This document shows, in pieces, positions 2,089-16,664 of a DNA stretch of 37,431 bases. Below the pieces are notes generated by a model that worked only from the letters and a program-made list of their open reading frames with translations, was not told the origin of the DNA and searched no databases. The stretch's first letter is position 1; the number at the start of each line of letters is the position of its first letter. Source of the DNA: Bacteroidia bacterium (GTDB lineage Bacteria; Bacteroidota; Bacteroidia; B-17B0; Aurantibacillaceae); NCBI GenBank assembly GCA_026414605.1, contig JAOAIP010000076.1:1-37431 (forward strand), read 5' to 3'. The position numbers and the translations under genes are program-made.

Positions 2089-3687
2089 TTATTTACGCAT
2101 AATTGGAAATAATATCCTGAATAAGAAAAGAACCAAAAATAAAACATTTGCAGGTGAAATAATATCTCCAATGCGAGAATAAATAGAAGCATTTTTTTGC
2201 AATGGAATTTTAGCAATTAAATGTTCTCTTGTCCAATAATTGGTTTGCTGCAAGATATTTCCTAATGGATCTATAACTGCGGAAATACCTGTATTAGCAG
2301 ACCTTGCAATATATGTACGATTTTCTATTGATCGCAATCTCCCAAACATCAAATGCTGATAATACCCTGGTGTATCTCCCCACCATCCATCATTAGTGAT
2401 AATGAACAACGCTTTTGCCCCTATTTTGAAAAATTTTGATACAAAATCTGAAAAAACACTTTCGTAACATATTATTGTAGCCACAGGAATTTTATTTTTT
2501 ACAAACAATAAAGAAGGTTGATCTTGTTGTCCTAAACTTCCTGTTGTTCCACCCAAATCAATAGCCAAATTTTCTAATGGTTTAAATATTTCTGGATATG
2601 GCATTTTTTCTACCCCAGGCACTAACTTTGACTTGTGAAATATCTGAATAGTATCTTTTGAAAGACATAAAGCCGTATTAAAAATATCGTAAAACATTCC
2701 TTCTGAATTTTGTCTTGCAGTAGCAGGAATCTTATCTTTATCAGAATATACCTTGAATGTATTAGCACCTGTAATAATGTTGATAGTAGGATATTTCATC
2801 AAAATACTATCATATAAATACCGAATGCTTGGATACTGAATCATTTCAAACATTGAACCTTCATAGATATTTTCAGTAATAAATGTTTCTGGCAATACTA
2901 TTACATCTATGCTATCGTTCAAAAAGGGCTTGATTTGTTGATACATTGCATTGACTTGAATAAGTGGTTCTATATAAAACTTATCATTATAAGGATCTAC
3001 ATTGGGCTGTACAATCAGCACATTTAATGAATCAGAAAAATTATTAGGCAATGCTTTACTTCTGTAAATCAACAAACTTAAAGACACAACAATAGGTATT
3101 ACAAGAATGTTAATTACATTTTTAATCAACCATTGAGTAGCGAATCCATTTATGATATATTGAGTAATTATGATATTACTTGCTAAAATCCATAATGTTC
3201 CGCCCGATGTTCCAGTCAATTCGTACCATTGAACCATCCAAGGTGCAAAAGCAAATACATTTCCTAAACACAACCAAGGCCACATTAAATCCCAATGATA
3301 GTGCAAGTATTCAAAGGATATCCAAAAAGGTATAATCCACCATAAACTTAAACTTTTACTATATTTTTTTTGTAACAAAAATGGCATTGAAAAAAACATA
3401 CACATCAAAATACTATTGGCTACTATAGCCATTATTGAACCACCTACACTGGCTAAACTTATCCACCAAGTAGTCAAAGCATTCCATAATAAAAACATCA
3501 ACCCATTTAATTGAATAAACTTTAATGTACTAATCTTTTGATCAAATAATTGTTTTACTAATAAAAACAAGGGCACAAATGAGACAAAACTTAACCAAAA
3601 CAAATAAGATGTAAATGATGCTGACAACAACAATCCACTCAACAACGCTAACAACAAAGGGGATTTTAATAAATACTGCTTAAACAT
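2089..3687 (-). CDS. lnt: Apolipoprotein N-acyltransferase
   Basis: Lnt adds the third acyl chain to the N-terminal cysteine of lipoproteins at the inner membrane. The 532-aa protein has an N-terminal hydrophobic half (residues 1-210, about seven membrane segments) followed by a periplasmic nitrilase domain. The nitrilase triad is visible: E267 in VLPETF, K352 in HKSKLVP, C407 in IICYES. E267 carries the same number as the catalytic Glu of E. coli Lnt. GDTPGYYQH and RSIENRTYIARSANTGISA are typical family stretches. A last membrane helix closes the C-terminus (residues 508-530). The length is close to the family norm. Upstream lies the repeat-rich gap 3688-4126; downstream is the BtuF-like gene. 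Confidence 0.95.
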   Translation of the reverse strand: MFKQYLLKSPLLLALLSGLLLSASFTSYLFWLSFVSFVPLFLLVKQLFDQKISTLKFIQLNGLMFLLWNALTTWWISLASVGGSIMAIVANSILMCMFFSMPFLLQKKYSKSLSLWWIIPFWISFEYLHYHWDLMWPWLCLGNVFAFAPWMVQWYELTGTSGGTLWILASNIIITQYIINGFATQWLIKNVINILVIPIVVSLSLLIYRSKALPNNFSDSLNVLIVQPNVDPYNDKFYIEPLIQVNAMYQQIKPFLNDSIDVIVLPETFITENIYEGSMFEMIQYPSIRYLYDSILMKYPTINIITGANTFKVYSDKDKIPATARQNSEGMFYDIFNTALCLSKDTIQIFHKSKLVPGVEKMPYPEIFKPLENLAIDLGGTTGSLGQQDQPSLLFVKNKIPVATIICYESVFSDFVSKFFKIGAKALFIITNDGWWGDTPGYYQHLMFGRLRSIENRTYIARSANTGISAVIDPLGNILQQTNYWTREHLIAKIPLQKNASIYSRIGDIISPANVLFLVLFLFRILFPIMRK

Positions 3688-3860
3688 TTTTTATTTTCTT
3701 AAATTAAAGAACTCGCCTTATATTTCTTTGATAAATTGAATATCAAAATTATGTTACTTGTTTTAAATTATATCTTACCACAAAGAACACAAAGGATTTA
3801 CACAAAGTTCACAAAGTATCTTTAATAGATTATATTTTGTCCTTATGGGACACATCATAC

Positions 3861-3881
3861 TTTCCACTTTCCACTTTCTAC
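3861..3881 (+). repeat. Heptamer run, three units (TTTCCAC, TTTCCAC, TTTCTAC)
   Basis: Three consecutive 7-base units in perfect phase belong to the TTTTMAC-like family that recurs in this window. A second run in the same orientation, less regular, lies at 4010-4038 within the same composite element. Confidence 0.7.
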
Positions 3882-3900
3882 TTTCTTCCTTATAAGTGTC

Positions 3901-3981
3901 GCCCTTTCAGGGCTTGAAATGGTGTGGATTTATTTTCACAGGGCTTTGCCCTGTGCTATTGTATTTTGCCCCTTCGGGGCT
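3901..3981 (+). repeat. Hairpin-rich dispersed repeat, best-preserved copy
   Basis: The segment contains GCCCTTTCAGGGC, CACAGGGCTTTGCCCTGTG (8-bp stem, 3-base loop) and GCCCCTTCGGGGC, separated by AT-rich spacers. A clearly related but decayed copy lies at 16585-16664, and a fragment of it in inverted orientation at 22085-22109. Confidence 0.75.
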
Positions 3982-4126
3982 ACCCATATTTTATCCCTAC
4001 GGGACGGACTTTTTACTTTCAACTTTCCAACTTTGCACCAACAATTTATTTGTTTGTGTTCTTTGTATTTGAATTTAAGATAATGGATCAAAAATTCTTC
4101 AATTTACAATCAATTAAGCGAGTTTA

Positions 4127-5395
4127 TTATAATTTAATAATCTGATCTCTATCCGGACCAACAGATAAGTAAGAAATTTTAACCCCTGTATTTTCTTCAA
4201 TAAATTCAATATATCTCAATAATTCGGCTGGTAATTCTGATTTTAATCTACAATGCGTAATATCTTTTTTCCAACCTTTTAATTCTTGATAAATTGGAAT
4301 TATATCTTCATTACTCAAATCATAGGGCAAATAATCAATCACTTGATTATTAAAATGATAATGTGTACAAACTTTTATTGTATCTAAATCAGATAGTACA
4401 TCTGCCTTCATCATTATTAGTTCATTTGATCCATCCAATTGAATGGCATATTTTAATGCAGGTAAATCCAGCCAACCTACTCTTCTTGGACGTCCTGTGG
4501 TAGATCCAAATTCTTTTCCTTTTTGACGAATGAGTTCTCCTAAATCATCTTTAAGTTCTGTTGGAAAAGGACCACTCCCTACCCGCGTACAATAGGCCTT
4601 GAATATCCCAAAAACATTTCCAATTTTAGTAGGTGCAATACCTAATCCTGTACAAGCACCCGCAGTAATAGTATTTGATGATGTTACAAAAGGATATGTT
4701 CCAAAATCTATATCCAATAAAGTACCCTGTGCTCCTTCTGCAAGTATTTTCTTGCCTTTTGAAAGGGCTTCATTTAAGTAATGTTCGCCATCTATAATCT
4801 GCATTTGCTTTAAAAACTCAATGCTTTCAAACCATTCTTTAATCTGATCTTCATTAATCTCATTCCAATTATAAAACTTCAACAATTGCAAATGTTTTTG
4901 ATACAATTGTTCAAATTTATCTTTGAAGTTAGTTTGATCAATATCCCCTACTCTCAATCCATTTCTACCTGTTTTATCCATATAAGCAGGACCTATGCCT
5001 TTTAAGGTAGATCCAATTTTATCCTTCCCTTTCATTGCTTCGCTTGCTGCATCCAGCCATCTGTGTGAAGGCAGTATCAAGTGTGATCTTTTAGATATTA
5101 ATAATCGTTTTTTTACTTCTATTCCTTCTGCTTCAATGTTTTTAATTTCTTTCATTAACACAATAGGGTCTATCACTACTCCATTTCCAATCAGATTAAT
5201 AATCTCTTCTCTAAAAATTCCACTGGGAATAGTATGTAGAACATATTTTTTGTTATTAAACATTAAAGTATGTCCTGCATTTGGACCACCTTGAAAACGA
5301 GCAATAATATCATACCTTGGTGATAGTATATCTACTAATTTACCTTTTCCTTCATCACCCCACTGCAGACCTAATAAAACATCTACATTTTGCAT
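4127..5395 (-). CDS. purA: Adenylosuccinate synthetase
   Basis: PurA condenses IMP with aspartate using GTP, the first committed step to AMP. The 422-aa protein has the expected N-terminus with QWGDEGKGK (residues 11-19, catalytic Asp14) and GGPNAGHT, which puts the second catalytic residue at His42. IGSTLKGIGPAYMDK, EGAQGTLLDIDFGTYPFVTS and the GTP-binding TTGRPRR are all present. The length is normal. The ATG at 5395 is chosen: an in-frame TTG two codons earlier (5401) gives no family similarity. Upstream is a 143-base gap to ribH, holding a GC-richer island (5434-5478). Confidence 0.97.
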   Translation of the reverse strand: MQNVDVLLGLQWGDEGKGKLVDILSPRYDIIARFQGGPNAGHTLMFNNKKYVLHTIPSGIFREEIINLIGNGVVIDPIVLMKEIKNIEAEGIEVKKRLLISKRSHLILPSHRWLDAASEAMKGKDKIGSTLKGIGPAYMDKTGRNGLRVGDIDQTNFKDKFEQLYQKHLQLLKFYNWNEINEDQIKEWFESIEFLKQMQIIDGEHYLNEALSKGKKILAEGAQGTLLDIDFGTYPFVTSSNTITAGACTGLGIAPTKIGNVFGIFKAYCTRVGSGPFPTELKDDLGELIRQKGKEFGSTTGRPRRVGWLDLPALKYAIQLDGSNELIMMKADVLSDLDTIKVCTHYHFNNQVIDYLPYDLSNEDIIPIYQELKGWKKDITHCRLKSELPAELLRYIEFIEENTGVKISYLSVGPDRDQIIKL

Positions 5396-5433
5396 ATACA
5401 ATTTTTTTCTAATCCATTTGAATTTTTATTAAC

Positions 5434-8868: not shown

Positions 8869-9172
8869 AATATGTTATTCCACATTTATCTTTACTTAAA
8901 CTACAAATATCTCAATTAAAAACACACACAAAGAACACAGAGAAATAATTAGTTAAAAGTAGAAAGTGAAAAGTAAAAAAGTTTTATGCCACTATAACCT
9001 TAAATATTTAAATTGCAAAAATATTCTCATTACTTTCAAACTTTATGCTTTTCACTTTTTGCTAACGTGTTCTTTTGTGGTAAAAACGCAATCTGAGTAA
9101 AAAATTAAATTCGTTTCCAACTATTGACCAACCATTTTGTTTTTCACTCTTTTTAAAATTGGTTTTTAATTT
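8869..9172. other. Intergenic region with an inverted composite repeat (304 bp)
   Basis: No gene is supported. The middle of the gap holds the bounded repeat 8927-9079. The remaining sequence is AT-rich. The near-match TAAAATTG at 9155-9162 could be a weak -7 element for trmH but departs from consensus at one base. Confidence 0.7.
8927..9079. repeat. Palindromic composite repeat with CACAAAGAACAC-type ends (copy B)
   Basis: CACAAAGAACAC at 8927-8938 is the reverse complement of GTGTTCTTTTGTG at 9067-9079, apart from one extra T. Inside, heptamers run in opposite orientations: GTTAAAA, GTAGAAA, GTGAAAA, GTAAAAAA (8952-8980) on the left, and TTTCAAAC, TTTATGC, TTTTCAC, TTTTTGC (9034-9062) on the right. 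TAAAAAC occurs just outside both ends (8917-8923 and 9081-9087), possibly a target-site duplication, though chance is likely in A-rich DNA. The ends match those of copy A (3780-4066). Confidence 0.6.
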
Positions 9173-15806: not shown

Positions 15807-16553
15807 ATGAAAAAATTTGTTTTGTTTGTATTGACAATTACTTTGTTTTTAGCGACTTTGATTTATGTGGCATTTCGTTGGGGCAGTGAATGGATAAGCA
15901 GTGTAGTGGCAGATATCATTCCTATAGAAGTTCAAGAAAAAATAGGTGAAGCATCTTTGAAACAATTAGAAATTCAAGAGTTAGAAAAAACAAAGTTACC
16001 AGTATTTACACAAGAAAAAATTAAGTCACGTTTTTTGAAAATTGTTCAACAAGATACCACTCACTTAAAGATACTTTTTTATGATGCACCTTATCCAAAT
16101 GCTTTTGCACTTCCGGGAAATTATATTGTTATTTTAGATTCTATTGTAAAATTAAGCCAAGATACTATTACTTACAATGATGTTATTGGTGTGATGGCTC
16201 ATGAAATGGGGCATTTACATTTTAAGCACAGTTTAAAATTGGTTATTAAATCAGGACTTACTGCTATGGTCATTAGTTATTTTATTGGAGATATTTCTTC
16301 ATTTGTAGCAAGCATTACACATCAACTACTTACTTTATCTTATTCAAGAAGTTATGAAGAAGAAGCCGATGACTATGCCATTTATTTACTTAAAAAACAA
16401 AAAATACCTACACTTCCATTGGCCCATTTATTAGAAAATATGAGTAAAACATACAAAGAAGAATCTACATTGCCGGCGTTTTTATCTACTCATCCTGTAA
16501 CTGAAGAAAGAGTTAAAAAATTGAAAGATGCAAATTTGAACATCTCTTTGTGA
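15807..16553 (+). CDS. M48-family membrane-anchored zinc metallopeptidase
   Basis: The 248-aa protein has an N-terminal membrane helix (residues 3-23) and a metalloprotease domain. The zinc site is HEMGH (132-136), and the third ligand lies in the E184-E186 cluster of SRSYEEEADDYA. NAFALPGNYIVI (98-109) and the C-terminal STHPVTEERVKKL are typical of M48 enzymes of the Oma1/LoiP kind. A second hydrophobic stretch (150-175) may dip into the membrane. Paired with the lipoprotein gene 6 bases upstream, it probably works in periplasmic protein quality control; that role is inferred. Confidence 0.92.
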   Translation: MKKFVLFVLTITLFLATLIYVAFRWGSEWISSVVADIIPIEVQEKIGEASLKQLEIQELEKTKLPVFTQEKIKSRFLKIVQQDTTHLKILFYDAPYPNAFALPGNYIVILDSIVKLSQDTITYNDVIGVMAHEMGHLHFKHSLKLVIKSGLTAMVISYFIGDISSFVASITHQLLTLSYSRSYEEEADDYAIYLLKKQKIPTLPLAHLLENMSKTYKEESTLPAFLSTHPVTEERVKKLKDANLNISL

Positions 16554-16584: not shown

Positions 16585-16664
16585 ACCCTTTCAGTGCTTA
16601 AAATGGAATTGTTTTTTACACAGGACTTTGCAATGTACTATTGTATTTCGCCCCTTCGGGGCTT
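16585..16664 (+). repeat. Decayed second copy of the hairpin-rich dispersed repeat
   Basis: Reading alongside 3901-3981, the order and spacing are conserved: ACCCTTTCAGTGCTT, then ACAGGACTTTGC, then CTATTGTATTTCG followed by GCCCCTTCGGGGC. The first two hairpins have lost pairing through substitutions while the last (16650-16662) is intact. Confidence 0.75.

Follow-up and report, generated by a model that had tools for sequence, protein, structure and literature searches.

What is the DNA that lies between purA and lnt in this Bacteroidota genome, and how might it have arisen? In the window, by which we mean the whole stretch of 37,431 nucleotides that was analysed, the two genes (lnt at 2089–3687 and purA at 4127–5401, both on the minus strand) are separated by 439 bp, and within this interval a 14-bp arm, ACAAAGAACACAAA, at 3780–3793 and its exact complement at 4053–4066 together span 287 bp. 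An earlier note on this DNA had described the arms as a perfect inverted repeat enclosing a sequence without coding capacity, and both descriptions stand: the arms are complementary at every position, and no open reading frame in 3688–4126 reaches 80 aa. A perfect 14-bp inverted pair with its members 14–300 bp apart arose in none of 500 mononucleotide shuffles of 3600–4200. We regard the island as repetitive and probably mobile intergenic DNA.

Three repeat classes are nested in the island: CACAAAG ends, heptamer arrays (CTTTCNA) and a REP-like GC-hairpin core. Its left outer end (3753–3816, plus strand) consists of a GTTACT-type outer sequence followed by a CACAAAG array, CACAAAGAACACAAAGGATTTACACAAAGTTCACAAAG, at 3779–3816, and contains the left 14-bp arm; because the conserved outer sequence of better copies extends further outward, we place the left end of the island nearer 3753. 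The right outer end (4053–4083, minus strand) begins with the complement of the arm and is decayed in its outer part. Inside these ends, one heptamer array of period 7 (ACTTTCC/ACTTTCT, 3859–3886, minus strand) lies on one side of the hairpin core and a second (ACTTTTT/ACTTTCA, 4008–4036, minus strand) on the other; as the two have the same orientation, that is, are direct and not inverted, the core seems to sit inside a single split array. The core itself (3839–4004, minus strand) comprises the hairpins GTCCTTATGGGAC at 3839–3851 (outside the heptamer array at 3859–3886), GCCCTTTCAGGGC at 3901–3913, CACAGGGCTTTGCCCTGTG at 3937–3955, GCCCCTTCGGGGC at 3968–3980 and TCCCTACGGGA at 3994–4004. The CTAC at 3980–3983, which has the last base of GCCCCTTCGGGGC in common with that hairpin, reads GTAG on the minus strand and there forms the foot of the GCCCCGAAGGGGC hairpin, the single GTAG-bearing hairpin of the core. 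An AAAGT array was looked for in the window copy and none was found. The predicted RNA fold of 3752–4095 (minus strand) has a z of −5.05, and the outer arms close the structure.

Pieces of the same repeat family occur at 70 sites in the 2.48-Mb genome, a count that is unchanged with merging distances of 200, 400 or 600 bp. BLAST with the window island and a fuller copy as queries yields 61 of these sites and the 12-mer CACAAAGAACAC alone the other nine; the merged input comprised 20 12-mer sites, 43 of 71 HSPs of the island and 42 of 49 own-genome HSPs of the fuller copy, the weakest being excluded. The 12-mer occurs 20 times in the genome as against 0 for its backward control. A longer pattern at up to three mismatches gives 123 matches as against 86 for the backward control, so that weak matches are largely noise. 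Longer family matches within this genome are about 78–94% identical, and those of the hairpin core 88–94%.

Two further copies lie within the window itself. The second island (8925–9082, no strand assigned) runs from a CACACAAAGAACAC end through heptamer arrays and a short AT-rich core to a GTGTTCTTTTGTGGT end, and is without a hairpin core; its arrays, at 8951–8985 and 9031–9065, are roughly inverted, with about 71% complementarity. The earlier note had seen here, at 8927–9079, the termini of the first island in slightly altered form, which agrees with the perfect 9-bp pair at 8930–8938/9067–9075. It had also treated the two islands as unrelated, a description that has to be given up since both belong to the one family with pieces at 70 sites. 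The third copy (16586–16663, plus strand), a decayed hairpin core alone, lies downstream of an open reading frame ending at 16553.

The outer ends of the family tend to face one another. In 157 kb of stretches around matches, taking ends 60–600 bp apart, CCACAAAGAACAC at up to two mismatches forms 16 convergent pairs (14 distinct elements), no divergent pairs and five direct pairs, three of which lie at one locus, and the backward pattern at the same tolerance forms no pairs. The expectation that inverted pairs would outnumber direct ones is thus borne out in the stretches examined; these were picked for matching, which should leave orientation unaffected. At three mismatches the counts are 39 convergent, 5 divergent and 33 direct, as against 6, 8 and 16 for the backward pattern, and the pair excess is blurred. 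In better copies the ends reach outward to GTTACT and are of two types, GTTACTnnTCAGGTTATATTTTACCACAAAG or GTTACTACTCAGCACTTCAAACTTAACCACAAAG. By eye, fuller copies (C5:13632-14016 and one on C26) have, in order, a GTTACT/CACAAAG end, an AAAGT-type array, an AT-rich core, an inverted CTTTC-type array and the opposite end, and in many copies of the family one of the heptamer arrays holds a GC-hairpin core. Within 120 bp inward of 50 outer ends there is an AAAGT array at 30 and a CTTT array at 33, compared with 2 and 0 respectively on the outward side. At up to three mismatches there are 27 instances of the junction CCACAAAGAACACATTAGT, each with an AAAGT-like unit after it. Three copies (L003, L017 and L046, on C19, C64 and C62) have a further outer flank in common, TTGCACAAC then TAC.TAGGTTGT (by eye), which suggests insertion into, or carriage with, another repeat.

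The hairpin core matches the Rfam family Acido-Lenti-1 (RF01687) at 3937–3981 on the plus strand with 45.5 bits (gathering score 37), and the gathering score is also reached in 13 of the 18 further own-genome loci given. The passages on Acido-Lenti-1 in PMC2864571 list it among candidate RNAs, from Acidobacteria and Lentisphaerae, whereas in this Bacteroidota genome it forms part of a dispersed repeat. Together with Acido-Lenti-1, the closest described relatives of the core are the GTAG-tagged REPs with their RAYT proteins (PMC3733652), which it resembles in being a many-copy set of GC hairpins with a GTAG foot, here on one hairpin. The relevant part of that source assigns GTAG repeats to Proteobacteria, Cyanobacteria, Chloroflexi and PVC and CGTC repeats to Bacteroidetes among others, and the present case differs in its Bacteroidota host and in a genome without a Y1_Tnp gene: PF01797 (Y1_Tnp, RAYT) was looked for in this genome, which is 96% complete, and is absent. 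Acido-Lenti-1 was found at none of the 20 Y1_Tnp loci scanned (of 30), and on these two grounds a RAYT was rejected as the partner of the hairpin core. Some Y1_Tnp loci have GC hairpins of their own (by eye), and Rfam Flavo-1 RNA (RF01705) is present at L309:387-469, within a 2.3-kb locus that also has a Y1_Tnp gene.

The heptamer layer resembles arrays found elsewhere around a small gene. Genes for four-helix-bundle proteins (PF05635), present in 232 of 296 sampled Bacteroidota genomes, are flanked by period-7 arrays. We compared loci of PF05635, of GxxExxY (PF13366) and of the comparison family PF01797, all three sets being best-scoring matches with no random draw, after excluding loci that were cut off (0 of 30, 1 of 30 and 3 of 30 respectively). 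Inverted similarity between the flanks exceeds that of every far control at 23 of 30 PF05635 loci, where the own partner ranks in the top 5% at 11, and at 9 of 27 PF01797 loci. Strong short-lag arrays are present in 19 of 60 PF05635 flanks (14 of them at lag 7) as against 2 of 120 far flanks, and at a stricter threshold in 3 of 60 as against 0 of 120; the units at L271 are similar to the window heptamers (by eye). Six genomes (L278, L279, L282, L284, L286 and L297) have the gene at one site, upstream of what is presumably a thiolase-like gene, named from a motif. The arrays at this site are of two types (AGTATTT and AAGATTT), and left and right arrays differ together while the gene stays, which may reflect either replacement of the element at one site or concerted change of both arrays.

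The window's own genome has one intact PF05635 gene (C48:9017-9325, 119.5 bits), situated among the same heptamers: a CTTTC array adjoins it on each side, the two having the same orientation, and an inverted array lies further away. Internally deleted copies at C58:57925 and C36:24087 (the arrays at C36 seen by eye and not by script) have the first part of the gene joined to the downstream array. An adjoining GCGTGAGGGATGCGGAGGGCGGC-like repeat is common to all three of these loci (L330, L331 and L332, on C48, C58 and C36; by eye), so that they seem to belong to a larger repeat unit. The window island, which lies between purA and lnt and outside 23S rRNA, has no four-helix-bundle gene. The protein encoded at C48:9017-9325 matches PDB 2gsc, named XCC0516, with an E of 1.1e-10, and we take 2gsc to be the S23p protein of Xanthomonas. 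This would fit the account of the Coxiella burnetii 23S rRNA intervening sequence in the passages of PMC4990558, where an S23p frame, complementary termini, tandem GACAGAT heptamers before the start codon and excision by RNase III are described. That sequence is the closest described case for the heptamer layer, having in common with it an S23p/four-helix-bundle frame with complementary termini, heptamers, an RNA hairpin and decay of the frame, although the arrays and genes of the present case are intergenic, the heptamer is different, most copies are gene-less and RNase III cutting is putative. The TAACTGA repeats of Beggiatoaceae (PMC4679880) are likewise intergenic direct repeats of a heptamer with a patchy distribution across phyla, but their unit is different and the passages on TAACTGA in that source contain no link to a four-helix bundle.

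The outer layer resembles repeats around a second small gene. The CACAAAG class flanks GxxExxY genes in inverted orientation in Bacteroidota, where PF13366 is present in 150 of the 296 sampled genomes. We assume that PF13366 belongs to the PD-(D/E)XK nuclease superfamily, as its Pfam name, PDDEXK_3, suggests; no solved structure matched the one PF13366 protein tried. The inverted similarity of a locus's own flanks lies above every far control at 26 of 29 PF13366 loci, and at 18 of 29 the own partner scores within the top 5% when set against the downstream flanks of other loci; direct similarity has a median of 8.5 and a mean of 13.2, as against 16.5 and 17.3 for inverted similarity. CACAAAG-class units at these loci are predominantly convergent (56 upstream and 49 downstream, as against 2 and 7 divergent). 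Two or more such units on both sides are found at 12 of 29 PF13366 loci, the other 17 falling short of this, and at 0 of 30 PF05635 and 0 of 27 PF01797 loci. Because the units are spaced 8–11 bp apart with variable bases between them, we relied on orientation and not on lag; strong short-lag arrays are present in 0 of 58 PF13366 flanks as against 4 of 116 far controls. Other PF13366 loci have related units, CGCAAAG, CGCAGAT and CACAGATT (by eye), and at L246 three gene-less copies and one GxxExxY copy stand in tandem with near-identical ends. The window island has convergent CACAAAG-class ends without a GxxExxY gene, and a search of its 96%-complete genome for PF13366 gave no match.

The outer end is also widespread as an exact string. 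The 17-mer TTWACCACAAAGAACACAAAG was found in at least 118 stretches of genome contigs, 80 of them listed with titles, from Bacteroidota, Thermoguttaceae, a planctomycete, Holophagaceae, Lentisphaerae, Kiritimatiellaeota, Akkermansia, Spartobacteria, Anaerolineae, Sumerlaeota, Stahlbacteria, Proteobacteria, Bacillota and Elusimicrobiota; most are MAGs, with possible mis-binning, and the named isolates include Mucilaginibacter, Flavobacterium, Alkalitalea and Ekhidna. With a partner sought within 220 bp at up to four mismatches in these at least 118 stretches, 46 have one in convergent and 23 one in divergent orientation, four stretches being counted under both, and 53 have neither, so that some inverted partner is present in 65 of 118 among the matches listed. 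When these stretches and 8 viral ones were searched by tblastn, GxxExxY homologues were found at four loci, at three of which (L155, L218 and L232, among the matches listed) the homologue lies within 100 bp of the 17-mer; four-helix-bundle and Y1_Tnp homologues were found at one locus each, more than 1.6 kb away. The links to GxxExxY and to the four-helix bundle were starting hypotheses that were then tested, and did not come from a tool's prediction. As far as we found in the literature searched, the outer CACAAAG arrays have not been described previously: the string ACAAAGAACACAAAG was not found there, nor was any description tying CACAAAG or heptamer arrays to GxxExxY, on which there is very little, the mentions by name being annotations.

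We consider it likely, though well short of assured, that non-autonomous inverted-array elements, derived from GxxExxY- and S23p-type elements, are nested in the island around a REP-like core. What was observed directly, and underlies this proposal, is how the copies are built and how many sites they occupy, the convergence of their ends, the genes with which the arrays are associated at the loci examined, the two internally deleted gene copies and two short congener intervals described below. The outer CACAAAG arrays would be the gene-less version of an element that elsewhere carries GxxExxY (PF13366/TIGR04256), and the heptamer arrays would derive from an element with an S23p-type four-helix-bundle gene (PF05635), within whose arrays the REP-like GC-hairpin core (Acido-Lenti-1) would have come to sit. 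The layers may have arisen by successive insertion, and the composite would then have spread as one unit, because the junction with its AAAGT-like unit recurs so often. Such elements may persist as intergenic selfish DNA, and when transcribed between purA and lnt they would form a long hairpin, a possible substrate for RNase III like that of 23S rRNA intervening sequences.

Several results count against this explanation. GxxExxY is missing from a 96%-complete genome, and the outer-layer link consists of an array class and short exact ends without a long homologous element. Ranked against other loci in place of far controls, the own partner reaches the top 5% at only 18 of 29 PF13366 loci and 11 of 30 PF05635 loci, the pair excess is blurred at three mismatches, and divergent TTWACCACAAAGAACACAAAG pairs occur in other genomes. 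The nearest arrays of the intact C48 gene, like the two arrays of the window island, are direct. To these we add the lack of Acido-Lenti-1 at the 20 Y1_Tnp loci scanned, together with the search of related genomes, in which no family member was found, and the target-duplication counts, the last two given below.

A doubtful but real contender is the opposite order of events, in which GxxExxY and four-helix-bundle genes are passengers that inserted into existing palindromic arrays, the gene-less copies being the original form. A gene in the loop of a palindrome looks identical under either order, and some insertion sequences do insert into REPs. The scarcity of the gene beside the 17-mer, with 3 of 126 exact stretches (118 genome and 8 viral, among the matches listed) having GxxExxY within 100 bp, is what such an order would lead one to expect, as is a convergent partner within 220 bp in 46 of 118 genome stretches, again among the matches listed. 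However, L331 and L332 are gene fragments joined to the far array, so that at least some gene-less forms arose by deletion, and at the one orthologous site left and right arrays alike change with the gene lineage.

Comparison with congeners bears on the nest of gene-less elements as a mobile entity. In the congener G002 approximately 50 bp separate the stop of purA from the start of lnt (83 bp between tblastn ends) as against 439 bp here, and at a second comparable locus the congener gap is 33 bp between tblastn ends as against 204 bp between open frames here. The insert is therefore missing at both of the two loci comparable with a congener, in keeping with the empty sites that the earlier note had proposed looking for, although with so few sites loss instead of gain may explain the short intervals. 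The comparison covered 80 own-genome queries, some sites being represented twice, against 400 kb of one congener contig and two lnt loci. In G001 purA and lnt are not neighbours, and lnt had no match in G003; for the rpe-trmH site, where the second island lies, no counterpart turned up in L268 or L269, and the wider comparison yielded no usable pair. A search with the whole element gave one weak match in three congeners, and no member of the family was found in 86 other genomes of the taxonomic family, congeners included (E 1e-8, best 7 candidates per genome). Target duplications were sought in 11 two-ended elements, whose copies look old: one match at 7 bp with one mismatch allowed (0.1 expected) and none at 8 bp amount to no clear excess. 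No transposase with matching ends was found among the families looked for in the genome (PF13366 and PF01797).

These results also weigh on an explanation that we think unlikely, namely that the island is a conventional MITE whose mobility came from a DDE transposase encoded by an insertion sequence with GTTACT...AGTAAC ends, since lost or missing from the assembly, the arrays being its interior. The outer ends are indeed conserved beyond the arrays; C5:13632-14016, a single case outside the 11 elements, has GAATTTTT on both sides, and at L048 (C58, about 79.5 kb) an IS66-like transposase fragment adjoins a GTTACTATTCAGG-like end, both by eye. Set against this are the lack of a target-duplication signal in the 11 elements and the separate occurrence of CACAAAG and heptamer arrays in other genomes, around two gene families, which makes them more than the interior of one insertion sequence. 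A minisatellite-containing MITE of Porphyromonas gingivalis, BrickBuilt, is reportedly also short, non-coding and multi-copy, with inverted ends and a tandem repeat inside. MITECca01 of Cardinium is, in the relevant passages of PMC9769881, similarly short, non-coding and multi-copy with inverted ends, but the present ends are arrays of short units in three nested classes, for which no parental transposase was found among the two families looked for and no clear target duplication in the 11 elements.

The choice offered by the earlier note, between a MITE-like element and a REP-type composite, is on this evidence a false one. Much that it implied was found: the island is bounded, non-coding and multi-copy, with convergent inverted ends, REP-like hairpins and absence at congener loci, and its shortness, many copies and terminal inverted repeats are those of a MITE. 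What does not stand is the either/or, since the heptamer and CACAAAG classes occur elsewhere around two gene families with the REP-like core inside; each half is partly right, a REP-like core lying inside heptamer arrays inside CACAAAG ends. That the island might instead consist of selected, non-mobile regulatory repeats (terminators or mRNA stabilisers), as its intergenic position and strong hairpins could suggest, is very improbable given its occurrence in 1 of 87 family genomes (best 7 candidates per genome), its absence from both comparable congener loci and its position between unrelated genes.

Returning to the nest of elements derived from two gene-bearing types, we advance tentatively a bolder extension, that GxxExxY, as a small PD-(D/E)XK-like nuclease family, and S23p-type proteins are the mobilisers of two very widespread classes of mobile element, which would end in inverted arrays of short units in place of fixed terminal repeats and act through a hairpin DNA or RNA intermediate without a known transposase. 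On this view gene-less derivatives of both classes make up the three-layer nest in the window, but mobilisation by these proteins is a hypothesis and not a result. The unusual part of the island is that two nested array classes are those which, in the loci examined, surround two abundant and poorly understood gene families. The likeness of two of the island's layers to the repeats around two small genes in other bacteria may point to little-known mobile elements. If the flanking inverted arrays are element ends, a testable role would open up for the abundant PF05635 and PF13366 families, some of the unexplained intergenic repeats of several phyla would have a source, and the Acido-Lenti-1 'RNA' would need re-examination as a dispersed repeat.
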